Shown here one piece after another: positions 760 through 18,036 of a DNA stretch of 25,066 nt. Within the stretch, counting starts at the first letter, position 1, and each line of letters opens with the position of its first letter. The DNA comes from a virus, in IMG/VR virus record IMGVR_UViG_3300047557_002406, positions 1 to 25,066 of that record. One strand, written 5' to 3'. The notes under the pieces were generated by a model. That model was given only the letters and a program-made list of their open reading frames with translations, searched no databases and was not told the DNA's origin. Made by a program: the position numbers and the translations under genes.

Positions 760-3119
760 AGAACTACGACTCCGTCGTCTCCCAGCTGCGTTCGGTGGGC
801 CTGATCTTCGACCACCTGGACTTCGGCCGTGTGCGGCGCTGCAAGGTCGAGGGCGACCGCGAGAAGCGGGGTTGGTACGCCCTGCACGAAGTCCCGGCCA
901 AGGATGGCGGGCTGCTGATCGTCGGCACCTATGGCATCTGGCGCGGCAACGACAACGGCGCACAGAAGATCCAGATCGAGCGAGCCGCCTTCAACCCCGA
1001 CCAGGCCGCCGCCATCCGCGCCAAGCTCGCCGAAGACCGCAAGCAGGCCGAGGCCGAACGCCAGCGCCTGGCCATGGATGCCGCCAACCGCGCCGCCAAG
1101 GTCTGGCACAGCTACCGCCCGGGCGCCGGTCAGAGCGAATACTTCGCCCGCAAGTGCGTCCAGGCCTACGGCGTGCGCTGGCACCCGTCCGAGAACGGCA
1201 CCGCCGCCATCCCCATGCGCGACGCCGCCGGCAAGGTATGGGGCTTGCAGATCCTGCGCGGCAAGAATCGGCGCCCCGGGCTGCTGGAAAAGGAATACTT
1301 CCCCCGCGGCCTGTCCAAGATCGGCCGATTCCACCTCATCGGCACCATTCTGGACGTGGTTCTTGTTGCCGAAGGCTACGCAACGGGCGCAACGCTGCAC
1401 GAAGTGACCGGCCTGCCCGTCGCCGTCGCCTTCGACGCCGGCAACCTCAAGCCCGTCGCCGAGGCCATAAAGAAAACCAATCGCCGCGCCCGGATACTGA
1501 TCTGTGCCGACGACGACTACCTCACCGAAGGCAACCCCGGCTGCAAGGCCGCCAAGGAAGCATCCCTGGCCGTCGAGGGCGACTGGGTCAAGCCCATCTT
1601 CACCGTAGACCGCCAAGGCAAGAAGCTCACCGACTTCAACGACCTGTACATGCTGGAAGGCCCGCAGCAGGTGCAGAAGACCGTCCAGGCCGCGCTCGAC
1701 AAGATGCCGCAGGCCGTCCGCAGCCCATCCCTGGCGCGGGGCACCCTACCCCAGGGGGGCGGGGAAAGTCAGGGCCACATGCCCTCGCTCATCACGGTCG
1801 AGGAAGCGGTGGTGCGCTACTGGGGCACCTACGGCCTGGGCGGCAAGGTACTGTTCGACCAGGTGGAGCGGCGCCTGGTGCACCGGGACGACGTCATGAA
1901 CCTGCTGCCGCCGCGATCCTGGGACCTGGTCAAGTCATCGCCATTCTGGCGCGTGGCCCGCGACACCGAGATCGGCTTCGACCCCACCGAGCAGGACAAG
2001 ACCATCCGCTGCAACCTGTTCGGCGGCTGGCCCACCCAGCCTGTGGTCGGCAACTGCAATGCCCTGCTTGGCCTGCTCGAATACCTGTGCGGCAACGAGC
2101 CGAACGCCGAAGAAATCTACCTCTGGATTTTGAAGTGGCTGGCCTACCCGCTGCAAAATCGCGGCGCCAAGATGCAATCAGCCATTGTCGTGCAAGGCCC
2201 CCAGGGCACCGGCAAAAGCCGCTTCTTCGAGGCTTATGGACGCATCTACGGCCCCTACTTCAGCGTCATCGGCCAGGATGCCCTCGAAGACAAATTCAAC
2301 AGCGACTGGGCCGAAAAGAAACTGTTCGTCATCGGCGACGAGATCCTCGCTCGCCAGGACATGTTCCACACCAAGAACCGGCTCAAGGGCTTCATCACCA
2401 GCGACTCGATCCGCGTCAACCCCAAGAACGTCGCCGCCCACACCGAAAAAAACCAGATGAACATCGTTTTCCTGAGCAACGAGCGCATGCCGCTGGTTTT
2501 GGAAAATGACGACCGGCGCCACTGCGTGATCTGGGTGCCGCCCAAGCTGCCCGACGACTACTTCGCCGCCGTCAACGAAGAAATGGAAAACGGCGGCATC
2601 CTCGCCCTTTACCACTACCTCCTCAACCTGCCGCTGGGCGACTTCAAGCCCTGGACCAAGCCCCCCATGACCCGCGCCAAGGCCGACCTGGTCGAGATGG
2701 GGCGCAGCAGCGAGGAACGCTTCCTGGCGGAATGGCAACGCTGGGAACTCGAATCCCCCGCCGGCGACATCCTGCCGTTTTGCCCCTGCCTTGGCAGCCA
2801 GCTTTACCGCGCCTACGAAGCCTGGTGCGAACGCCACGGCGAACGCCGGCGCGGCATGAAGGACCTCATCAGCCTGGCCGGCAAGCAACCCGGCTGGCGC
2901 GCCGGGGAATCCATCGGCACCTGGGTCACCATGCACGACCGCACCACCAAAAACCGCAAGCTCATCGTGCCCGCCGAATTCGCCGTAGACCTGGCATGGA
3001 AGGAACACCGCCGCGGCGAACACCCGCCCGCATGGCACCGGGACGCCTTCAGCAGCACCAAGGAATGGCTCACCGCCTGCCACTTCGCCTTCGAACAGGC
3101 CATGGGGCTGGCGTCATGA
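756..3119 (+). CDS. TOPRIM primase / SF3 (D5-like) helicase, phage replication protein
   Basis: A 787-residue replication protein expected to prime and unwind phage DNA. Residues about 1-150 form an N-terminal domain with a charged helix. A DnaG/TraC-like TOPRIM fold follows: LVAEGYATGATL near 203-214 holds the conserved acidic residue, and ICADDD near 249-254 is the metal-binding acidic motif. After a Gly/Pro-rich linker (about 325-345) comes a helicase domain with Walker A GPQGTGKS near 480-488, Walker B-like LFVIGDE near 523-529 and a sensor-like IVFLSNE near 570. This matches the virus-type D5/DUF5906 helicases that occur with TOPRIM or P4-alpha primases. No CHC2 zinc finger is seen. The ATG overlaps the upstream stop by 4 nt; the much longer open frame reaching back to base 9 is a shadow of the upstream gene. 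The iteron array starts directly after the stop. Confidence 0.9.
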   Translation: MKNYDSVVSQLRSVGLIFDHLDFGRVRRCKVEGDREKRGWYALHEVPAKDGGLLIVGTYGIWRGNDNGAQKIQIERAAFNPDQAAAIRAKLAEDRKQAEAERQRLAMDAANRAAKVWHSYRPGAGQSEYFARKCVQAYGVRWHPSENGTAAIPMRDAAGKVWGLQILRGKNRRPGLLEKEYFPRGLSKIGRFHLIGTILDVVLVAEGYATGATLHEVTGLPVAVAFDAGNLKPVAEAIKKTNRRARILICADDDYLTEGNPGCKAAKEASLAVEGDWVKPIFTVDRQGKKLTDFNDLYMLEGPQQVQKTVQAALDKMPQAVRSPSLARGTLPQGGGESQGHMPSLITVEEAVVRYWGTYGLGGKVLFDQVERRLVHRDDVMNLLPPRSWDLVKSSPFWRVARDTEIGFDPTEQDKTIRCNLFGGWPTQPVVGNCNALLGLLEYLCGNEPNAEEIYLWILKWLAYPLQNRGAKMQSAIVVQGPQGTGKSRFFEAYGRIYGPYFSVIGQDALEDKFNSDWAEKKLFVIGDEILARQDMFHTKNRLKGFITSDSIRVNPKNVAAHTEKNQMNIVFLSNERMPLVLENDDRRHCVIWVPPKLPDDYFAAVNEEMENGGILALYHYLLNLPLGDFKPWTKPPMTRAKADLVEMGRSSEERFLAEWQRWELESPAGDILPFCPCLGSQLYRAYEAWCERHGERRRGMKDLISLAGKQPGWRAGESIGTWVTMHDRTTKNRKLIVPAEFAVDLAWKEHRRGEHPPAWHRDAFSSTKEWLTACHFAFEQAMGLAS

Positions 3120-3403
3120 CCCAAAAAACCACGCCAACCACGCCACCAACCACGGCACAAACCACGCCACAAACCCGCATGGATGCTAGAAACCACGCCA
3201 ACCACGCCAAGACCCCTCGCGTACATGTGCGCGCATGCGCGAACACGCACGCAAATTCACATCACGCATCCCTCGCGCGTATGTGTGTATGCCGTGGTTG
3301 GCGTGGTTTAAGTGATATCAATGATTTAGAGCATTTCAGGCGTGGTTTCTGGCGTGGTTTTTTGGCTTGCTGCCGTGGTTTACATACGAAAGGAACGCAA
3401 TGA
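3116..3403 (+). CDS. Doubtful 95-aa reading frame running through the iteron array
   Basis: An open frame begins with an ATG overlapping the primase stop (ATGAC) and would encode a 95-residue protein. Its sequence is dictated by the DNA repeats: Thr-Pro-Thr and Asn-His-Ala runs on the left and Trp-Arg-Gly/Phe-Trp-Arg-Gly on the right. There is no recognisable domain and the composition is unlike any neighbour. The stop overlaps the next start (ATGA at 3400-3403). The two coupled overlaps argue that ribosomes might cross the region. The repeat-driven composition argues that it is non-coding origin DNA. I favour the latter. Confidence 0.2.
   Translation: MTQKTTPTTPPTTAQTTPQTRMDARNHANHAKTPRVHVRACANTHANSHHASLARMCVCRGWRGLSDINDLEHFRRGFWRGFLACCRGLHTKGTQ
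3120..3399. other. Candidate phage replication origin
   Basis: This 280-bp stretch between the primase-helicase and the next gene holds the iteron array. It also has two alternating pyrimidine-purine tracts (3218-3241 and 3274-3291), an 8-bp palindrome TGATATCA (3313-3320) and an AT-rich segment (about 3309-3338) that stands out from the GC-rich surroundings and could serve as an unwinding element. No good protein-coding signal is present. P4-type phages place an alpha-protein primase-helicase near iteron-bearing origins; assigning the same role here is inference. Confidence 0.6.
3127..3380 (+). repeat. Iteron array: 11 copies of AACCACGCC in two opposed groups
   Basis: Forward copies lie at 3127-3135, 3136-3144, 3148-3156 (one mismatch, AACCACGGC), 3160-3168, 3191-3199 and 3200-3208. 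Reverse-complement copies lie at 3291-3299 (variant), 3300-3308, 3339-3347, 3351-3359 and 3372-3380 (variant). Two of the forward pairs (3127-3144 and 3191-3208) and the first reverse pair (3291-3308) are perfect 9-bp tandems. The 19-bp arms 3190-3208 and 3291-3309 form an inverted repeat with a single mismatch. All forward copies lie left and all reverse copies right, so the region is a large imperfect dyad. Clustered short iterons next to a primase-helicase gene are the classic layout of an initiator binding site. Confidence 0.9.
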
Positions 3404-3633
3404 ACCCCGACCCTACTGGTTTTGATGAGTTCCACGACTGCGCTTCCTTATGCCAAACGGGCGGCCTCATCCCATGGGGCATCTCCAACGAATATCTGAT
3501 GGCGGTGGGCGATGACTACGAAGGCGTCGCACCCCTGGACGCGCCGGACTGGATTCCAGGCGGCGGGTGCGACAGATCCGAGGACTGGCTGGGCGAATCC
3601 GTCTGTCAGTACATCATTGCCCGCAATGCTTGA
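3400..3633 (+). CDS. Small acidic hypothetical protein (77 aa)
   Basis: A 77-residue acidic protein rich in Asp, Gly, Trp and Pro, with three Cys. No family is recognised. The ATG at 3400 is chosen because AAAGGAA lies at a good distance upstream (about 3389-3395); an earlier ATG at 3367 would run into the last iteron. It is the first gene after the origin candidate and overlaps the next small gene by 8 nt. Its position before the terminase genes suggests a small early-to-late junction gene, but function cannot be assigned. Confidence 0.6.
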   Translation: MNPDPTGFDEFHDCASLCQTGGLIPWGISNEYLMAVGDDYEGVAPLDAPDWIPGGGCDRSEDWLGESVCQYIIARNA

Positions 3634-3820: not shown

Positions 3821-4416
3821 CCCGCGTCACCCAGGCCGAATTCGCCCGCATGGCCGGCGTCAACCGCTCCACCGTCCACCGCTGGCTCCAAAACGGCCGC
3901 ATCGAAGCCGACGCCCACGGCCTCATCGACCCGGACGCGGCGGCCAGGATGCGCGACGCCACGGAAAGCCCCATGCCGCACCACCAGGCGCGCAAGGCGC
4001 AGTTCGATGAGGCGCGGGAGGGTATTGGCCAGGGTGGCGCGGAGAAAACGCAACAGGCGGGCCAGGAAGCGCAACAGCCCGCAACGCCCGAGCCCATGCC
4101 CGCCATGGAAAAGCTTGGCGCCGCCCTCAAGCTGGAAACCTACAAGCTGCAAAAGGCCAAGGCCGAGACCGCCAACATGGAGCTGGACAAGCTCGCCGGC
4201 GCCCTGGTCGAGCGCGCCGAGGTGGATTTCGTTTTGGCCGACTTCGGCAACACCCTGCGCGGACTGCTCGAAGGCCTGCCCGACCGCATCACCCACGAGT
4301 GCATGCGCATCCGCGACGCCGCCGACATGCACAAATACCTCGCCGACACCTTCGCCGACACCCTGACGGAGATGGCGGAGCACATGAAACGGAAGATGGA
4401 GGAGACGCACCCATGA
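3817..4416 (+). CDS. Terminase small subunit, Nu1-like
   Basis: A 199-residue protein. Residues about 3-45 are a helix-turn-helix/winged-helix type DNA-binding unit (TQAEFARMAGVNRSTVHRWL, then a short wing with LIDPDAAARM), as in the lambda Nu1 family. Residues about 50-95 are a Gln/Ala-rich linker. The rest is strongly helical and charged (about 95-199), fitting dimerisation and contact with the large subunit. It would recognise the packaging site and load the large terminase subunit. It overlaps its neighbours by 4 nt on both sides, and the terminase large subunit follows directly, which makes the assignment firm despite low motif content. Confidence 0.85.
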   Translation: MTRVTQAEFARMAGVNRSTVHRWLQNGRIEADAHGLIDPDAAARMRDATESPMPHHQARKAQFDEAREGIGQGGAEKTQQAGQEAQQPATPEPMPAMEKLGAALKLETYKLQKAKAETANMELDKLAGALVERAEVDFVLADFGNTLRGLLEGLPDRITHECMRIRDAADMHKYLADTFADTLTEMAEHMKRKMEETHP

Positions 4417-6299
4417 CCGCCGCCCCGGCCAACCTCGAACACCTGCCCATCGACGGGCTTATCCCCTACGCCCGCCGCTCCCGCACCCCCATCCCGCACG
4501 CCCGGCGTCACTTCTACGCCCTGCTCGCGCGCTCGGTGCGGCCGCGCCCCCTAACCACCGTCTCCGCCTGGTCGGACAAATACCGCATCCTCACCTCCAA
4601 GGGCTCCGGCGAGCCGGGGCAGTGGCGCACCGACCGCACGCCCTACCTGCGCGAGATCCTGGATAGCCTGTCGGTCAACTCCCCCGCCCAGCGCATCGTC
4701 CTCATGTTCGCTGCCCAGCTCGGCAAGACGGAAGTCGGCCTCAACTGGATCTGCTACGTCATGCAGCACGCCCCCGGCCCCATGTTGACCGTGCTGCCCA
4801 CCCTGGAGGTGCGCAAGCGCTGGGTGCGCCAGCGCCTGGACCCGCTGCTGACCGAGACGCCGGTCATCCGCGCCCTGTTCGACGCGCGCCGTGCCCGGGA
4901 CGCGGGCAATGCCGAGGACATGAAGGACTTCCCCTGCGGCATGCTGGTCATCGGCGGCGCCAACAGCCCCGCCAGCCTGGCGTCCATGCCCATCCGCTAC
5001 GTCCTGTGCGACGAGGTAGACCGCTTCCCCTGGGAGGTGGGCCAGGAAGGCGACCCGCTCGGCCTCATCGACGAGCGCACCAAGACCTTCCCCCGGCGCA
5101 AGGTGCTGCTGGTCTCCACGCCCACGGTGAAGGGCGCCTCGCGCATCGAGGGAGAGTACGAGAAGTCCGACATGCGCCAGTTCCACGTGCCATGTCCCCA
5201 TTGCGGCGAACTGCAGGTGCTGCGCTGGCGCCATGACGACGGCCGCTACGGGCTGATCCACAACGCCGCCACCGGCGCCGTGTACTACGCCTGCATCCAC
5301 TGCGGCGAACGCATCGACGAGCACCACAAGCCCGCCATGCTAGCCGCCGGCCGCTGGATCCCGCGCCACCCGGAGCGCGCGGTGCGCGGCTATCACCTGT
5401 CCGGCCTGTATTCCCCCATCGGCCTGGGCTTCACCTGGGCGGAACTCTGGCGGAAATGGGAGGAAGCCCACGGCGACACCGCCAACCTCAAACGCTTCAT
5501 CAACACCACCCTGGGCGAATCCTGGGAGGAGCAGGGCGACAGCATCGAAGACCTGGCCCTCATCGCCCGCCTGGAGGACTACCCCGACACCCTGCAGGCC
5601 AGCCTGCGCACCGCCGGGGTGGACGTGCAGAAAGACCGCCTGGAAGCCACCATCGTTGCCTGGGGCGCCGGCGAGGAAGGCTGGCTCATCGACCACCTCA
5701 TCCTGCCCGGCGACACCGCCCGGCCGGAAGTCTGGGAAGCCCTGCACGACGCCCTGACCGACGCCGGCATCGCCTTCGCCGCCATCGACTCCGGCTACAA
5801 CACCAGCATGGTCTACGCCTTCACCGAAAAGCGCCGCTGGTCGGTGGCGGTGAAAGGCATCACCGGCATGGGCCGCCCCCTCATCGAGGACGAAAAGAAG
5901 CGCCGCCAGCGCCTGCGCAACCGCCGCAAGAAAGCCGCCCACGTGGAACCCCTGGGCGTGGACCAGGGCAAGGCCCTGCTCTATGCCCGCCTCAAACTGC
6001 CGGTGCCCGGCCCCGCCTACCTGCATTTCCCCAGGGACCCAGCCTTCGACGACGAATACTTCGCCCAGCTCGCCGCTGAAAAGCTGGTGACCAAGATCAA
6101 GGGCACCCGCCCGTTCCAGGAATGGGTCCAGACCCGGCCCCGAAACGAAGCCCTGGACTGCCTGCTCTACGCCCTCGCCGCCCTGCGTTTGAGCGGCAAG
6201 ACGCCGGCGGCGCCGGTGATGGTGCCGGCAGGCGTGGTGTCATCACCGCCAGCCCAGCCCGGCGTGCGCCGCATCGGCCGCATTGGCCGGAACTTTTGA
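4413..6299 (+). CDS. Terminase large subunit, GpA family (ATPase/nuclease)
   Basis: A 628-residue DNA-packaging motor and cutter. The ATPase has Walker A AAQLGKTE near residues 100-107, Walker B YVLCDEVDR with acidic residues D200/E201, and a coupling motif LLVSTPT near 231-237. A zinc-binding pair follows: CPHC at 261-264 and CIHC at 294-297. The nuclease half begins around GVDVQKDR (D404), continues with AIDSGYNT near 457-464, and ends with a conserved DCLLYALAALR segment near 582-592, typical of GpA-type terminases (lambda gpA). Length is close to lambda gpA. The ATG at 4413 overlaps the small-subunit stop by 4 nt; the longer frame from 4299 lies inside the small subunit and is rejected. 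Confidence 0.95.
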   Translation: MTAAPANLEHLPIDGLIPYARRSRTPIPHARRHFYALLARSVRPRPLTTVSAWSDKYRILTSKGSGEPGQWRTDRTPYLREILDSLSVNSPAQRIVLMFAAQLGKTEVGLNWICYVMQHAPGPMLTVLPTLEVRKRWVRQRLDPLLTETPVIRALFDARRARDAGNAEDMKDFPCGMLVIGGANSPASLASMPIRYVLCDEVDRFPWEVGQEGDPLGLIDERTKTFPRRKVLLVSTPTVKGASRIEGEYEKSDMRQFHVPCPHCGELQVLRWRHDDGRYGLIHNAATGAVYYACIHCGERIDEHHKPAMLAAGRWIPRHPERAVRGYHLSGLYSPIGLGFTWAELWRKWEEAHGDTANLKRFINTTLGESWEEQGDSIEDLALIARLEDYPDTLQASLRTAGVDVQKDRLEATIVAWGAGEEGWLIDHLILPGDTARPEVWEALHDALTDAGIAFAAIDSGYNTSMVYAFTEKRRWSVAVKGITGMGRPLIEDEKKRRQRLRNRRKKAAHVEPLGVDQGKALLYARLKLPVPGPAYLHFPRDPAFDDEYFAQLAAEKLVTKIKGTRPFQEWVQTRPRNEALDCLLYALAALRLSGKTPAAPVMVPAGVVSSPPAQPGVRRIGRIGRNF

Positions 6300-7215: not shown

Positions 7216-9114
7216 ATGGGCTTCCTCGATTTCTTCCGCCGCAAGCCCGCCAAGTACGACACTAAGCGCGACGCCTACGCCGCCACCTACGGTAACGCCA
7301 GCCCGGGCGGCTTTGCCGGCGCGGCGGTCAACCGCCTGACGGCCAGCATGTCCACCTGGTCCGGCTCGCTCAATGCCGACCTGGACGGCAACCTGGTCAT
7401 CCTGCGCGCCCGGGCCCGCCAGCTTGCCGCCAACAACGCCTATGGCCGCCGCTTTTTGAACCTGGCAGCCACCAACATCGTCGGCAACGACGGCCTGCCC
7501 AAGCTGCAGGTGCGTGCCCTGCAAAACCAGCGCGATCCCAACAAGCCCACCGCCCTGGACAAGGCCGCCAACGACGCCATCGAGATACATTGGGACCAAT
7601 GGGGCCAGGCCGCCGACATCGCCGGCCGACTCACCTGGTCCATGCTGCTGCGCCTGGTGGTCAAGGCCGTCGCCAGGGATGGCGAAGCCCTGGTGCGCCT
7701 GGTGCGCCGCCGCGACCTGCCCTACGGCTTGGCCCTGCAACTGCTGGAAATCGACCGCCTGGACGACGCCCTCAATCGCGTCGGCTCCGGCGCCACCATC
7801 CGCCAGGGCGTGGAAATCGACGGCAGCGGCCGGCCACTGGCCTATTGGGTCAAGACCACCCACCCGGGCGAGGCCTACGCCGTCGCCGCCAGCCAGTACG
7901 AGCGCATCCCCGCCGGCGACATCCTGCACGTGTTCCTGCCAGAGCGCGCCGAACAGGTGCGCGGCTACCCCTGGTTCCACGCCGTGCTCAACGACTCCGC
8001 CCAACTGGGCGAATTCATGAAGTCCGCCGTCATCGCCGCCCGCATCGGCGCCTCCAAGATCGCCGCCCTCGAGCGCAGCGAGGACAGCCTGGACCAGACC
8101 GCCATGATGGGCGACGCCGCCAGCGGCAACGCCATCCAGATGAACGTCGAGGCCGGCGAGATGTTCGAGCTGCCGCCCGGCTACAAGCTGAACAGTTGGG
8201 ACCCGGAATATCCCCACGCCAACTTCGACAGCTTCCTCAAGGCCTGTCTGCGCGGCATCGCCAGCGGCATGGACGTGGCCGCCCACAACCTCACCGGCGA
8301 CATGACCGAAGTCAACTATTCCAGCGCCCGCATCGCAGAACTGGCCGAGCGCGAGCAATGGATGGCCCTGCAGGACTGGCTGATCGCCTGCCTGGTGCGC
8401 CCGGTCTATAAGGAATGGCTGAACATCGCCCTGCTGCGCGGCGACATCACCTTCCCCGTCTCCGGCAAGGCGCTGCCCTTCGACCGCTACGACAAGTTCG
8501 CCGCCGCCTCCCGCTTCCAGGGCCGCCGCTGGCAATGGGTGGACCCTCACGTCGAGGTGGAGGCCGCCCAGCTCCTCATCGCCAACGGCCTCGCCAGCCG
8601 CACCGAGATCGCCGCCGCCAAGGGCCGCGACTTCTCCGACGTGCTGGACGAGCTGCAGATGGAAGACCAGGCACTGGCCGCCGCCGGCCTCAAGATCGCC
8701 ACCGCCGCGCCGCAGGTGCCGGACAAGGAGATCGAGCGCGCCCGCGAGGATGCCTTCCTCCGCCGCCTGGACGAACGCGCCCCCGCCGCGCCGCCCCAGG
8801 TATTCAACATCCACCCCCACGTCACCCTCAACCAGGCCGAAGTGCGTGTGGACGTGCAACCCCAGGAAATCCGCGTCGAACAGCCCGCCATCCACAACAC
8901 CATCCAGGTCGAGCCCACGCCCATCCACATCGCCGCCCCCGAGATCCGCAACATCATCGAAGTGGAGCCCACCCCCATCACCATGGAAGCCCGCATCGAA
9001 ACCCCCGCGCCCGAGGTGACGGTCAACCTCCCCGCCCGGCGCACCGAAACCACCATCGAACGCGACGCATCCGGCAACATCGCCCGCGCCTCGCAGATCG
9101 AAACCGACGCATGA
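7216..9114 (+). CDS. Portal protein, lambda family
   Basis: A 632-residue portal, the dodecameric ring at the head vertex through which DNA is packaged. The N-terminus (GFLDFFRR, then AYAATYGNASPGGFAGAAVN) and the segment RARARQLAANNAYGRR...NIVGNDG (about residues 62-95) are typical of lambda gpB-type portals. Further core segments are KAVARDGEALVRLVRR (about 147-163) and a helical wing/stem region around 330-420. Residues about 528-632 form an extended, non-globular tail with three exact-length 18-residue repeats (8848-9009). Its stop overlaps the endolysin start (ATGA). A protease would normally follow, but the lysis cassette comes next instead. Confidence 0.93.
   Translation: MGFLDFFRRKPAKYDTKRDAYAATYGNASPGGFAGAAVNRLTASMSTWSGSLNADLDGNLVILRARARQLAANNAYGRRFLNLAATNIVGNDGLPKLQVRALQNQRDPNKPTALDKAANDAIEIHWDQWGQAADIAGRLTWSMLLRLVVKAVARDGEALVRLVRRRDLPYGLALQLLEIDRLDDALNRVGSGATIRQGVEIDGSGRPLAYWVKTTHPGEAYAVAASQYERIPAGDILHVFLPERAEQVRGYPWFHAVLNDSAQLGEFMKSAVIAARIGASKIAALERSEDSLDQTAMMGDAASGNAIQMNVEAGEMFELPPGYKLNSWDPEYPHANFDSFLKACLRGIASGMDVAAHNLTGDMTEVNYSSARIAELAEREQWMALQDWLIACLVRPVYKEWLNIALLRGDITFPVSGKALPFDRYDKFAAASRFQGRRWQWVDPHVEVEAAQLLIANGLASRTEIAAAKGRDFSDVLDELQMEDQALAAAGLKIATAAPQVPDKEIERAREDAFLRRLDERAPAAPPQVFNIHPHVTLNQAEVRVDVQPQEIRVEQPAIHNTIQVEPTPIHIAAPEIRNIIEVEPTPITMEARIETPAPEVTVNLPARRTETTIERDASGNIARASQIETDA
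8848..9009 (+). repeat. Three 18-residue repeats in the portal C-terminal tail
   Basis: Three consecutive 54-bp units start at 8848, 8902 and 8956. The consensus is [IV]-x-V-x-P-x-x-I-x-[IV] followed by a second Pro and Ile in most units; units two and three share VEPTPI. Alternating hydrophobics with a fixed 18-residue period suggest a stacked beta-strand or beta-solenoid extension. The flanking residues (VFNIHPHVTL before, PEVTVNLP after) look like degenerate further units. Confidence 0.7.
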
Positions 9115-9536
9115 ACGCCCCCGCCATGCGCCTGGCCGATTACTGGATGGGCCGCAACGAGACCCACGCCGACGACCTCACCGCCGAGATCGTCCGCAAC
9201 GCCACGCACTTATTGCGCCGGGTCAACAACCTGTTGGTGCTCATGCACGACATCCAGATCGAGCCGCACCCCATCCCCGGCAACCCCATCACCTCCGGCT
9301 GGCGCCCGCCCGAGATCAACGCCGGCACCAAGGGCGCCGCGCCGCGATCCAAGCACATGAGCGGCAACGCCGTGGATCTGTACGACCCCGATGGCGAGAT
9401 CGATGCCTGGTGCATGGATCACCTGGATTTTCTCGCCGAGGCCGGTCTGTGGCTGGAACATCCGTCCGCCACGAAAGGCTGGTGCCACCTGCAACAAGTC
9501 CCGCCCAAGAGCGGGCGGAGAGTCTTTTACCCATGA
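9111..9536 (+). CDS. Endolysin: M15-family peptidase
   Basis: A 141-residue zinc peptidase predicted to cut peptidoglycan peptide cross-links at lysis. It has SGWRPPEIN near residues 63-71, the zinc site SKHMSGNAVDL with H82 and D89, a probable catalytic Glu in LWLEHP (E116), and the third zinc ligand H126 in WCHLQ. This order fits the Peptidase_M15_3 family common among phage endolysins. There is no signal peptide, so it needs a holin. The ATG at 9111 overlaps the portal stop by 4 nt; ATG 9126 is an alternative. Membrane protein and Rz/Rz1 genes follow in the same operon. Confidence 0.85.
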   Translation: MNAPAMRLADYWMGRNETHADDLTAEIVRNATHLLRRVNNLLVLMHDIQIEPHPIPGNPITSGWRPPEINAGTKGAAPRSKHMSGNAVDLYDPDGEIDAWCMDHLDFLAEAGLWLEHPSATKGWCHLQQVPPKSGRRVFYP

Positions 9537-9994
9537 AAGCCCTGATCCTGCTGCTCCTCGCCTTCCCCGCCTTGGCCGCCGATTCCTGGTCCACCGCGTC
9601 GTCCTACTCTCAAGCCTCCGCCCAGGCCGGCGCGGTAGCTGGCGCCATTTCCGGCGGCAATACCTTCCAGGGCGGTTCCTACAAAGAGCAGAAGCAGGCC
9701 CCTGCCGTGTTCGCCCCATCCATCGCACCTACCGCGCCCTGCATGGGCGGAACGTCGGCCGGCGGATCAGGCACGGGGTTCGGCTTGTCGTTCGGCACGT
9801 CCTGGACCGATGACGAATGCAACACCCGCGAAACCGCTCGCCTGTTCCATAGCCTTGGCATGGCCTCCGACGCCCTGTCCGTGCTGTGCTCAAGCGCCTA
9901 CGCGGCTGCCGCGCCAAGCTGCGCCGGCCGCGAGAAGCCTTGCCACGCCGACGAGATCGTCGCCCGTCGCTTGGGTGTGGGAGTCTGCAAGTGA
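9533..9994 (+). CDS. Secreted Cys-rich protein of the lysis cassette, unknown function
   Basis: A 153-residue protein with a clear Sec signal (MKALILLLLAFPALA, cleavage near residue 15-16). The mature part is Ser/Ala/Gly-rich (SSYSQASAQAGAVAGA), then a beta-like SGTGFGLSFGTSW segment, then a helical C-terminal half with six Cys in the mature protein, which could pair in the periplasm. I recall similar exported proteins in prophages but cannot name a function; a periplasmic lysis accessory or superinfection factor are both open. It overlaps the endolysin stop (ATGA) and the next GTG start (GTGA), so it is firmly part of the cassette. Confidence 0.7.
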   Translation: MKALILLLLAFPALAADSWSTASSYSQASAQAGAVAGAISGGNTFQGGSYKEQKQAPAVFAPSIAPTAPCMGGTSAGGSGTGFGLSFGTSWTDDECNTRETARLFHSLGMASDALSVLCSSAYAAAAPSCAGREKPCHADEIVARRLGVGVCK

Positions 9995-12081: not shown

Positions 12082-14229
12082 ATGGCTATTACCGCAGTCG
12101 TTGTAAGCGCCACGCTAAACACGACTGGCGACACCGCGTTTACATCTTCTGGCTTTGGTACGCCGGATGCCGCGATCATCCTGATCGGGCGTGGCAGCAC
12201 GACAAACAACCCCGGAACAAACGCTACCTTTACGGGGGGCTTCTGGTGCTCTGATCCGGGGCAGGCGGGCATCACTTTTTGTTCCGAAGATGCTCAAGCA
12301 ACAACCGATACACGGCGCTACGGCGATAGTACCTATTCCGGGCATGTCGCGTCGCCAACCGCCGATTCGGTAGTTATTTCGTATTCCGCATCCAGTACCA
12401 CGGACGGCATCAACCTGACGGTGGCGGCGGGATCGACAACGCTCAACCGCTATGCCAGCGTAATCTTGCTCAAGGGCCTAACCAATGCCCATGTCGGCTC
12501 GATCAACCTGGGCACGGGCACCTCGGCCATCAACGTCACTGCGCCTGGATTCCGCGCCGATCTTGTGCTGCTGCTGTCGGCTTGGGCGGCAGATGCCACG
12601 CTCACCACTCTCGCTCGTGGTTCCTTCGGCGCGGCGCAGATTTCAGCCGGCGGGACGGTGGCACAGGGCTGTATCAGCTACGAATCCACGGACAACGCCG
12701 GAGCGTCCACGGCGAGCACCATCGTACTCAACGACAAGGCTCTGGCGCGGATTACCTCCGGGGCGCTCGCGGTTGAGTGCGCCATCGGGGCCAACGACAA
12801 CGGTTTCAGCATCACCCCGAGCGCGGATTCCGGGTCGCAGTACGCCTACTACCTCGCCATAGAATGTCCCGATCCCGAGGACGCCTATGTGGGCGTGGTG
12901 GATACCATTACCGGCGAAGGTGATCAAGCCTATACCGGCGCGGGCCTCACTCCACAGGCGCTTATCCTGGCGTCCACGCTGGCCACCGCCGTCGATACCG
13001 TCACGGATTCAGGTGCGTTCAACGTGGGCTTCGGCGGGCCGACGACTTCCGAGTGGTCATCGGTTTACATCGACGAATACGCCAGCGACCCGACCGACAC
13101 CGAAGGCTATGTAGATGCAAGCAACATCCTGCATATCCGTTCCGCTGTCGGCACTGAGGATACCGTCGCGGCCCTGACCACGTTTGGTTCCGATGGCTGG
13201 ACGCTGAATTACTCCAACGGCAGCGGCACTGCCAGGAAGATGCTGGCGATTGCCATCGGCAACAGCAGTACCCCGACAACCGTCGCCCCTGGTGCTGGTG
13301 GTATCGCCGTCGCGGGCCAAGCGCCGACGATCAGCCAGCCCCACACGGTAGCCCCCGCTGCCGGTGCTGTTTCTGTCACGGGCTACGCGCCGTCACTGAT
13401 CCATGGCGTCAGCGTAGCACCCGGTGCGGGATCAGTGGCCTATACCGGCCAGTCCCCGGTAATCTTGCAGCCTCATACCGTCGCGCCATCGGCGGGCGCA
13501 GTCGTCGCGCTTGGGTACGCCCCGAGCATCCAGCAAGCTGCTGGCATTTACCCAGGCGCGGGCGAGGTGGTCTACACCGGCCAGACGCCCACAGTCAGCC
13601 AACCACACACCGTCGCCCCCGGAGTCGGGGCCTACGACATCCTGGGCTACGCCCCAACGGTTTCCCAGGCGGCAGGCGTTGCCCCGCTGGCCGGGTCAAT
13701 CATCATCCTGGGCTACGCGCCGAGCATCGCGCAGCCTCACACCGTAGCACCCGCTGCCGGCGCGGCGGCGTGGTCGGGGTATGAGCCAACAATCAGCCAG
13801 ATTGCATCCTCTTTCACCGAGGCCCAGCTTCAGGAAATCCTCGCCTATGTGGAGGCCAACATGGCCGTACCGACAACCTCAGAAATTGCCGCAGCCGTGT
13901 GGGCGGAAATCCTCTCCGGCAGTAGTGCCGCCGACCGGCTGGTGGGGATGGCAACCGCGATCCTGGCGGCTGCCCAGGCCGCGCCGATCCATGCCAATGT
14001 CGTGGCCGGGCAAACGGACATCGCCGACGCGGTATGGGCGGAAGTGCTGGAGGGCACGCTCACAGCGGCCCAGATTCAGCGCATCAATCTGGCCGCCCTC
14101 GCCGGCAAACGCCAGGGCCTTGGCACGGCAACCGAGGAATATCTGGCCCAGGATGGCGTAACGCCGCGCGTGACCTTCACGCCTTCGGATGCGTCCGGCA
14201 ACGGCACCACGGTGGTGGACGGGGCATGA
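12082..14229 (+). CDS. Large beta-repeat virion protein (715 aa), adhesin or decoration candidate
   Basis: A 715-residue protein in three parts. Residues 1 to about 398 look like three tandem beta domains of about 130 residues, each with a G-x-F/P-x-A-x-x-L/I-x-L motif near its start (FGTPDAAIILIG, GFRADLVLLLS, LTPQALILAS) and each ending in a hydrophobic strand (ASVILLKG, YYLAIE, MLAIAIG). Residues 401-576 are eight exact 22-residue repeats. The C-terminal 139 residues hold two copies of IAxAVWAExLxG and end in a beta-like tail with GNGTTVVDGA. This is the architecture of a surface-exposed, extended virion protein that could bind host surface or decorate the particle. Wider GC and A/T-ending codons suggest recent acquisition of this module. 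It starts 6 nt after the previous stop. Confidence 0.7.
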   Translation: MAITAVVVSATLNTTGDTAFTSSGFGTPDAAIILIGRGSTTNNPGTNATFTGGFWCSDPGQAGITFCSEDAQATTDTRRYGDSTYSGHVASPTADSVVISYSASSTTDGINLTVAAGSTTLNRYASVILLKGLTNAHVGSINLGTGTSAINVTAPGFRADLVLLLSAWAADATLTTLARGSFGAAQISAGGTVAQGCISYESTDNAGASTASTIVLNDKALARITSGALAVECAIGANDNGFSITPSADSGSQYAYYLAIECPDPEDAYVGVVDTITGEGDQAYTGAGLTPQALILASTLATAVDTVTDSGAFNVGFGGPTTSEWSSVYIDEYASDPTDTEGYVDASNILHIRSAVGTEDTVAALTTFGSDGWTLNYSNGSGTARKMLAIAIGNSSTPTTVAPGAGGIAVAGQAPTISQPHTVAPAAGAVSVTGYAPSLIHGVSVAPGAGSVAYTGQSPVILQPHTVAPSAGAVVALGYAPSIQQAAGIYPGAGEVVYTGQTPTVSQPHTVAPGVGAYDILGYAPTVSQAAGVAPLAGSIIILGYAPSIAQPHTVAPAAGAAAWSGYEPTISQIASSFTEAQLQEILAYVEANMAVPTTSEIAAAVWAEILSGSSAADRLVGMATAILAAAQAAPIHANVVAGQTDIADAVWAEVLEGTLTAAQIQRINLAALAGKRQGLGTATEEYLAQDGVTPRVTFTPSDASGNGTTVVDGA
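13282..13809 (+). repeat. Eight tandem 66-bp (22-residue) repeats
   Basis: Eight in-frame units with no insertions. The protein consensus is VAPxAGxVxxxGYAPxxxQPHT. Position 13 alternates Gln/Tyr through the first six units (GQxP, GYAP), then is Tyr, and many units alternate endings between QPHT and QAAG-like. This implies a 44-residue ancestral pair that was duplicated. The DNA copies have diverged, with most identity in the GTCGCCCC/GCCGGCGC-type segments. Confidence 0.9.
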
Positions 14230-16467: not shown

Positions 16468-16491
16468 CCCATGAGGCCACGAGGAGACAGA

Positions 16492-18036
16492 ATGAGCTGG
16501 TATCCGGACGCACCCCAAGGCGACGAAGCGGCCAAGTGCCGCTTCGACGTATTGCCCTATCTCGCCAAGGGTGGCATCGACATCGGCTGCGGCATGCGCA
16601 AGGTCTGGCCGCACCTGGTGGGCGTGGACAGCGGCCTGGACCAGCAGCTTTTCGGCATCCCGGTGAAGGCCGACCTGATGGTGGGCAACGCCGCGCGCAT
16701 GCCCCTGTTCGCCGACGAAGCCTTCCACGCCGCCTTTTCCAGCCACCTGCTGGAACACATGACCGACCCGCTGGCCGCCCTGCGCGAATGGTGGCGTCTC
16801 ATCAAGGTGGGCGGCCACCTGGTGCTCTACCTGCCCCACGCCGACCTCTACCCCAACATCGGCCAGCCCGGCGCCAACCCCGACCACAAGCACGATTTCC
16901 GCCCGGACGACGTGCTCGCCCTGCTGCGCCATGCCGCGCCCGACTGGGCCCTGGCGGAAAACCAGACCCGGCCCGAAGGCCTGGAATATTCCTTCCTGCT
17001 GGTGGTCAAGAAGCTGCCACCCGGCGCCGGCCAGCACGAAAGCCTGCCCATCCGCCCGGCCAAGACCGCCGCCGTGGTGCGCGTGGGCGGCCACGGCGAT
17101 GCCCTGTGGGCCTCGTCGCCGGTGGCGTTGCTGAAAGAGCGGGGCTACCACGTCACGGTCTACACCGCCCACACCGGCGCCGAAGTGCTGGCCCATGATC
17201 CCCACATCGACCGGCTTATCAGCCTGCCCGACGGCATCCTCACCGATGAGGACCTGATCGCCTACTGGGCCCATGAAGCGCCCAAGTACGACTCGTTCAC
17301 CAACCTCATCGGCTCCGTCGAGGTGCGCCTGCTGGCCCACGCCAACGAGCCCGCCTTCTACCTGCCCGCCGCCGTGCGCCAAAAGTTCATGAACATGAAC
17401 TACCTGGAAGTGGTGCACGACTATGCCGAGATGCCCTACGACTTCCGCCAAAAGTTTTACCCCAACGAGTTCGAGGCGGCCTGGGCCAAGGAACAGCGCG
17501 AGCGCCTGGCCGGCCCGGTGGTGGTCATCAACCCGGCCGGCTCCGGCCCCACCAAGTTCTGGCCCCACACAATGGCCATGGCCCGCAAGCTGGCCGGGCA
17601 CGGCGTGCATTCCGTCATCCTGGGCGACCTGGACTACGCCATGGCCGCCGACATCGAAGACGTGGAACCCTGGATACACGTGGTTGGCAAGGCCTGGCCG
17701 GTGCGCGCCGCCCTGGCCTACGCCCAGGTGGCCGACGCCGTGGTGGCCACGGAAAGCCTCATCGCCAACAGCGTGGCCATGGAGGACATGCTGAAGGTGG
17801 TGACGCTTTCTCACAGCAGCAACGAGAACCTGACCAAGCACTGGAATAACACGGCGGCCATCGAACCCAAGGCCATCGCCTGCCATCCCTGCCACCGCAT
17901 CCACGGCCACACCTTCGCCTTCTGCCAGGTGGACACCGCCACCGGCTGCAGCGCCTGCCAGGCCGCCGCCGGCCCCGACCTGGTGGCCGGCATCGTGCTC
18001 GACTGGCTGCGCCGCCGCCAGGAGCGCGCCGCATGA
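16492..18036 (+). CDS. SAM methyltransferase-GT9 glycosyltransferase fusion
   Basis: A 514-residue two-domain enzyme. Residues about 15-175 are a class I methyltransferase: motif I IDIGCG at 29-34, an acidic GVDSG next strand near 44, MPLFADEAFHAAFSSHLLEHM near 76-95 and a WWRLIKVGGHLVLYLPH strand near 100-116. Residues about 193-514 resemble glycosyltransferase family 9 (heptosyltransferase-like): VVRVGGHGDALWASSPVALL at the N-terminal subdomain, VVVINPAGSG near 343-352 and VADAVVATESLIANSVAM near 413-430. A C-terminal Cys/His cluster (ACHPCHRIHG, then CSACQ) ends the protein. The start at 16492 is chosen over 16471 because GAGGAG (16481-16486) lies 5 nt upstream. It sits between capsid and head-tail joining genes and overlaps the latter by 4 nt. 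Substrate is unknown: phage capsid, host LPS or DNA are all open. Confidence 0.82.
   Translation: MSWYPDAPQGDEAAKCRFDVLPYLAKGGIDIGCGMRKVWPHLVGVDSGLDQQLFGIPVKADLMVGNAARMPLFADEAFHAAFSSHLLEHMTDPLAALREWWRLIKVGGHLVLYLPHADLYPNIGQPGANPDHKHDFRPDDVLALLRHAAPDWALAENQTRPEGLEYSFLLVVKKLPPGAGQHESLPIRPAKTAAVVRVGGHGDALWASSPVALLKERGYHVTVYTAHTGAEVLAHDPHIDRLISLPDGILTDEDLIAYWAHEAPKYDSFTNLIGSVEVRLLAHANEPAFYLPAAVRQKFMNMNYLEVVHDYAEMPYDFRQKFYPNEFEAAWAKEQRERLAGPVVVINPAGSGPTKFWPHTMAMARKLAGHGVHSVILGDLDYAMAADIEDVEPWIHVVGKAWPVRAALAYAQVADAVVATESLIANSVAMEDMLKVVTLSHSSNENLTKHWNNTAAIEPKAIACHPCHRIHGHTFAFCQVDTATGCSACQAAAGPDLVAGIVLDWLRRRQERAA

Follow-up and report, generated by a model that had tools for sequence, protein, structure and literature searches.

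An opposed array of lineage-specific iterons behind a primase-helicase gene is predicted to form a replication origin of tailed phages

The DNA analyzed here, hereafter the window, is the full 25,066 nucleotides of IMG/VR virus record IMGVR_UViG_3300047557_002406, a linear 25-kb contig that may be incomplete. Near its left end lies a gene for a fused primase-helicase, followed by an array of short repeats and then by a small open reading frame (ORF; 3400-3633) and genes for TerS, TerL, portal, capsid, tail terminator, major tail protein and tape measure. These downstream terminase, portal, capsid and tail genes mark the window as a complete-phage module; virion genes are present, whereas a PICI satellite is recognized by the lack of a full virion gene set. 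Several virion-region genes have features of their own. TerL (4299-6299) finds its best named-phage matches in the terminases of Wolbachia phage WO, at about 44% identity. For a 715-aa ORF at 12082-14229, located between the genes for portal and capsid, neither PHROGs nor Pfam gave a match. A 521-aa protein encoded between the capsid and tail genes (16471-18036) contains a Methyltransf_11 domain (E 7e-10) and weakly matches glycosyltransferase 9, which makes its gene an unusual piece of cargo for a structural operon.

The primase-helicase comprises a TOPRIM domain (residues ~200-300), an SF3/D5-type helicase domain (DUF5906, VapE-like; 480-588) and a C-terminal winged helix (~675-745). Comparison with homologues places its start at the ATG at position 756 rather than at the GTG at position 9. 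An AlphaFold2 model was obtained with a pLDDT of 89.7, and Foldseek matched it to the NrS-1 helicase (6k9c, E 6e-18) and to the SaPI5 primase-helicase (7ola, E 8e-10). The winged helix of the model has a recognition helix at 701-709 and wing strands at 715-723 and 731-738, an arrangement in which 718/720 and 733/735 are alternate residues on paired strands.

Searching for AACCACGCC with at most one mismatch revealed eleven 9-mers between 3127 and 3380, comprising eight exact copies and three copies of the variant AACCACGGC (Table 1). The copies are split by orientation, with six forward iterons on the left (3127-3208) and five reversed iterons on the right (3291-3380). The first of them begins 8 nt past the stop codon of the primase-helicase gene, a placement shared by relatives. 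The inner arms (3190-3209 and 3290-3309) pair over 20 nt at 95%, with one mismatch. The first-pass annotation had described eleven 9-mers, eight of them exact, divided six against five, with inner arms pairing at all but one position and the whole array directly after a TOPRIM/SF3 primase-helicase gene; each of these observations was borne out. The window thus holds 6 + 5 recognizable sites, and by direct reading the expected sixth position on the right (~3282-3290) matches 5/9 letters. The eight exact copies within 281 nt exceed both the maximum of five in 2000 first-order shuffles and the maximum of four across 486 other stretches of the window, and chance is no explanation for the array.

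Table 1 Features of the primase-helicase gene and of the array behind it, in window coordinates
Feature	Position	Strand	Basis or remark
Primase-helicase/initiator gene, 787 aa	756-3119	+	Pfam/PHROG matches, AlphaFold2 model, Foldseek, homologue starts
Winged-helix coding sequence, residues ~683-740, predicted iteron reader	2802-2975	+	Secondary structure of the model, covariation of 718/720/733/735
Predicted whole replication origin	3120-3399		Primase stop to next gene; synthesis of evidence
Left outer iterons 3127-3135, 3136-3144, 3148-3156 (AACCACGGC), 3160-3168	3127-3168	+	
Left inner iteron pair 3191-3199, 3200-3208	3191-3208	+	
Left copy of the central element CGCGTACATGTGCGCGCATGCGCG, a 24-bp tract of unbroken purine-pyrimidine alternation	3218-3241		Sequence reading; element kept in relatives and second set
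Right central element CTCGCGCGTATGTGTGTATG, match to CTCRCGYGYRYRTA	3272-3291	+	Conserved in relatives and second set
Right inner iteron pair 3291-3299 (AACCACGGC), 3300-3308	3291-3308	-	
IHF-like site TATCAATGATTTA, exact match to WATCAANNNNTTR	3316-3328	+	Right inner-outer iteron gap, 27% GC
Right outer iterons 3339-3347, 3351-3359, 3372-3380 (AACCACGGC)	3339-3380	-	

Other identities for the region were considered. A coding region was rejected, the repeats overlapping only accidental ORFs (2732-3403, in another frame), and relatives change the 9-mer while keeping its spacing, a pattern unfit for a protein. No Rfam match was found anywhere in the window, and no homologous stretch at the DNA level was found in known phages.

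To follow the array beyond the window, relatives were collected by a primase search that yielded 80 viral and 8 genomic loci, and each was given an array score, defined as the best-repeated 9-mer in the 340 nt after the primase stop codon. Among 87 homologues the score had a median of 8.1 and a minimum of 4.0. Shuffled sequences gave a median of 2.4, with 95% below 3.4 and a maximum of 4.8, and control stretches within the gene and 1 kb further on gave a median of 2.4, with maxima of 4.1 and 3.8. The lowest real scores (4.0-4.8) reach the control maximum of 4.8, which marks a small number of arrays as weak or degenerate. Results were similar in a second and wider set, 68/72 loci scoring at least 4.9 with a median of 8.7. 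The linkage of array and gene is therefore nearly universal, and the same layout, written in other repeat letters, occurs in more than 100 related viruses. Named phages that carry it include Stenotrophomonas S1, Moraxella Mcat4, Pseudomonas PG1 and Turba, and Halomonas H4907, and one relative (L085) sits in a Nitrosomonadales MAG. In phage S1 (L109, NC_011589), the annotated hypothetical protein gp2 (2454-2804) covers the iteron array (2470-2734) and probably reflects a false gene prediction across the origin. The first-pass annotation had proposed looking for the array after homologous primase genes, taking homologues without repeats as evidence against an origin; nearly all relatives keep it, and the reading was not refuted. 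Its remark that the iteron was one it did not recognize is explained by the 9-mer being lineage-specific, with examples such as AACTACGCC, TGTGCAGGG, TGTTCCGGG and CCGCACGGG.

The geometry of the array is kept across these lineages: outer sites, a gap, and an inner pair or triplet at 9-bp spacing lead to a centre of about 75-95 bp, beyond which the order is repeated as a mirror image. Allowing up to two mismatches, the commonest number of sites per arm is six (left, 28/56; right, 29/56) and the commonest total is 12 per array, numbers that would suit two hexamers of an SF3 helicase. Single outer iterons are inverted, with their positions kept, in loci L044, L050, L052, L112 and L113; this suggests a flexible tether between the DNA-binding domain and the helicase.

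Two further elements recur within this framework. In the gaps that separate inner from outer iterons, the IHF consensus WATCAANNNNTTR is over-represented, and the strand that carries it in the right arm is opposite to that in the left. IHF-like sites with no more than one mismatch were found in only 42% of right arms, compared with 6% of shuffled sequences and 7% when the wrong strand was read, and in only 25% of left arms compared with 3%; the corresponding values in the second set were 31% versus 2% (right) and 29% versus 1% (left). Adjoining each inner iteron group is an alternating purine-pyrimidine central element close to CTCRCGYGYRYRTA and its inverse, which fits with 2.4-2.8 mismatches, compared with 4.4-4.6 in shuffles; the window's two copies occupy 3218-3241 and 3272-3291. 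This element may mark where the duplex is opened by the helicase ring or where primers start, and the alternating purine-pyrimidine tracts have the potential to form Z-DNA. The centre has a GC content of 57% in the window and averages 54% across loci, against 58% for the contigs; the AT-rich part of the window's array is the right-arm gap (27% GC), rather than the centre as in PICI/SaPI-type origins.

Across loci, the letters of the iteron vary together with the C-terminal winged helix of the upstream enzyme. After correction for helicase identity, the strongest correlation with iteron similarity lay in residues 701-745, where partial r reached 0.31 as against 0.21 or less in other parts of the protein, and in a re-run with 58 loci the observed partial r of 0.28 was reached by 0/500 permutations. 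Tables compiled from the first set associated R at residue 720 with G at iteron position 2, and D/E with C/T; R/K at residue 733 with G at position 3, and N with C; and, for position 5, K/R at residue 735 with A and the remaining residues with C. These rules were applied to 61 new, held-out loci whose C-terminal domains are 31-78% identical to the nearest member of the first set. There, R720 was accompanied by G2 in 35/37 loci, D/E720 by C/T2 in 10/11, R/K733 by G3 in 9/9 and K/R735 by A5 in 18/19, while other residues at 735 went mostly with C (32/42); the wing rules held, with tallies of 35/37, 9/9, 4/4 and 18/19. Fisher p values range from 2e-6 to 1e-10, with relatedness ignored and the loci being related rather than independent events. 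A tree-based test of coincident changes (Fitch parsimony) did not single out the wing, which supplied 8 of the top 100 pairs against 6.3 expected, and whole-protein mutual information enriched it only about 2.3-fold (16 of the top 100 versus 6.8). The null coincident-change test and the modest mutual information indicate that part of the covariation is shared ancestry, which inflates the pattern. Taken from sequence comparison, a few amino acids of the enzyme appear largely to predict the repeat letters of each virus, and the covariation and the structural model together predict that the C-terminal wing hairpin of the primase-helicase reads the iteron.

The same comparison bears on whether the array might be a packaging site (cos/pac) bound by TerS. 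The TerS gene lies 440 nt downstream of the array, a TerS-like gene occurs within 4 kb in 62/62 core loci whose downstream sequence was long enough, and the N-terminus of TerS is DNA-binding. Iteron similarity nevertheless tracks the initiator wing (partial r 0.28) more than TerS (0.14), and the residues that predict iteron letters belong to the wing of the primase-helicase. In Halomonas H4907, Moraxella Mcat4, Pseudomonas PG1 and Turba, moreover, the array stands behind the primase gene while the listed adjoining genes are not terminase genes. A packaging function is accordingly very improbable.

The closest published layout is the origin of PICIs and SaPIs (pri-rep-ori). PICI origins consist of two iteron sets that flank an AT-rich centre 3' of rep, with iterons that vary between elements (PMC6092414, PMC7581432). 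The C-terminal domains of SaPI Rep and of Cch2 bind iterons just downstream of their own genes (PMC7581432), and in Gram-negative PICIs the gene and origin sustain plasmid replication (PMC6092414). The window shares with these origins the opposed iteron sets around a centre, the position immediately 3' of the rep or primase-helicase gene, the element-specific iterons and a helicase fold related to that of SaPI5. It differs in belonging to a complete tailed-phage gene set rather than to a satellite, in its TOPRIM primase as opposed to an AEP primase, in a GC-rich centre with purine-pyrimidine alternation as opposed to an AT-rich one, and in the IHF-like sites between inner and outer iterons. 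A paper from 2018 described the layout as unique to PICIs and present in no other known replicon (PMC6092414); because the window is a complete-phage module, that claim of exclusivity is contradicted.

Other replicons share single aspects of the arrangement. At the SCCmec Cch2 origin, too, direct repeats placed shortly after the gene are bound by the C-terminal domain of a D5-type helicase (PMC7581432), but this origin contains only three 5-nt iterons and relies on a separate primase-polymerase. The primase-helicase of phage NrS-1 provides the closest solved helicase domain, although it is a deep-vent phage protein and the likeness is to the helicase domain.

Initiators often autoregulate, and the array lies between a replication gene and packaging genes. 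It could accordingly be an operator at which the primase-helicase or another repressor acts on the downstream late genes, with replication starting elsewhere. Opposed, symmetric 6+6 arms around a conserved centre go far beyond the needs of an operator, however; the array is found 3' of the gene for the initiator, and its layout matches that of functional PICI origins (PMC6092414). We regard the operator reading as highly unlikely.

Phage P4, to which the first-pass annotation had likened the locus, is comparable in kind: it has a fused primase-helicase with a C-terminal winged helix and crr type 1 repeats (TGTTCACC) just past the alpha stop codon, and in a tentative alignment its wing residues H, Q and N fit the iteron TGTTC. 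As the nearest published layout, P4 gives way to the PICI/SaPI origin. P4 needs separate ori and crr loci, whereas the window has a single, mirror-symmetric iteron cluster, and crr consists of two 120-bp repeats in which the sites face both ways. The P4 precedent, in which crr immediately follows alpha and ori lies apart at 9086-9809, raises the further question of whether the array is a crr-like accessory in cis, its forks starting at a second locus outside a 25-kb linear record that may be incomplete. No second iteron cluster was found in the 25-kb window, where the remaining one-mismatch matches are scattered, and the array combines two opposed arms with a conserved centre, features that are absent in this form from P4 crr. 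A role as an accessory to a second locus is thus unlikely.

We therefore favour, at a probability of roughly 0.87, the reading of 3120-3399 as a theta-type tailed-phage origin at which the upstream primase-helicase acts as its own initiator, with two opposed, wing-bound hexamers and an opened centre. The array is very probably the docking place of the copying enzyme for starting viral DNA copying. The origin proposed in the first-pass annotation is strongly supported, in that nearly all relatives have an array behind their homologous primase gene and the iteron tracks the wing of the enzyme. By analogy with SaPI Rep, Cch2 and PICI origins, we infer the following course of events. The C-terminal winged helix would read each 9-bp iteron through its wing hairpin, and six subunits per arm would assemble into two opposed hexamers with the 80-bp centre between them. 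The right-arm gap between inner and outer iterons may be bound and folded by IHF or a comparable DNA-bending protein. The SF3 motors would then melt the central region and move apart as bidirectional forks, with the fused TOPRIM domain laying primers.

We lean modestly toward a broader proposal, namely that a mirror-symmetric 6+6 origin serves a large set of complete tailed phages, that a simple residue-to-base code in the wing of their D5-type primase-helicase allows lineages to diverge toward mutually incompatible origins, and that a GC-rich alternating purine-pyrimidine element takes the place of the customary AT-rich one. The present analysis offers a predicted origin for a broad set of phages, for which none was found described in the openly accessible literature. 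The natural series of initiator-iteron pairs, together with the candidate residue-to-base code, can be tested by simple binding assays; if the code is true, origin specificity would be readable from protein sequence. The conserved GC-rich central element also prompts one to ask how these SF3 helicases could open the duplex where no AT-rich stretch is present. A layout of origin once regarded as exclusive to satellite islands is now seen in complete phages, which bears on how phages and their satellites separate or share replication systems.
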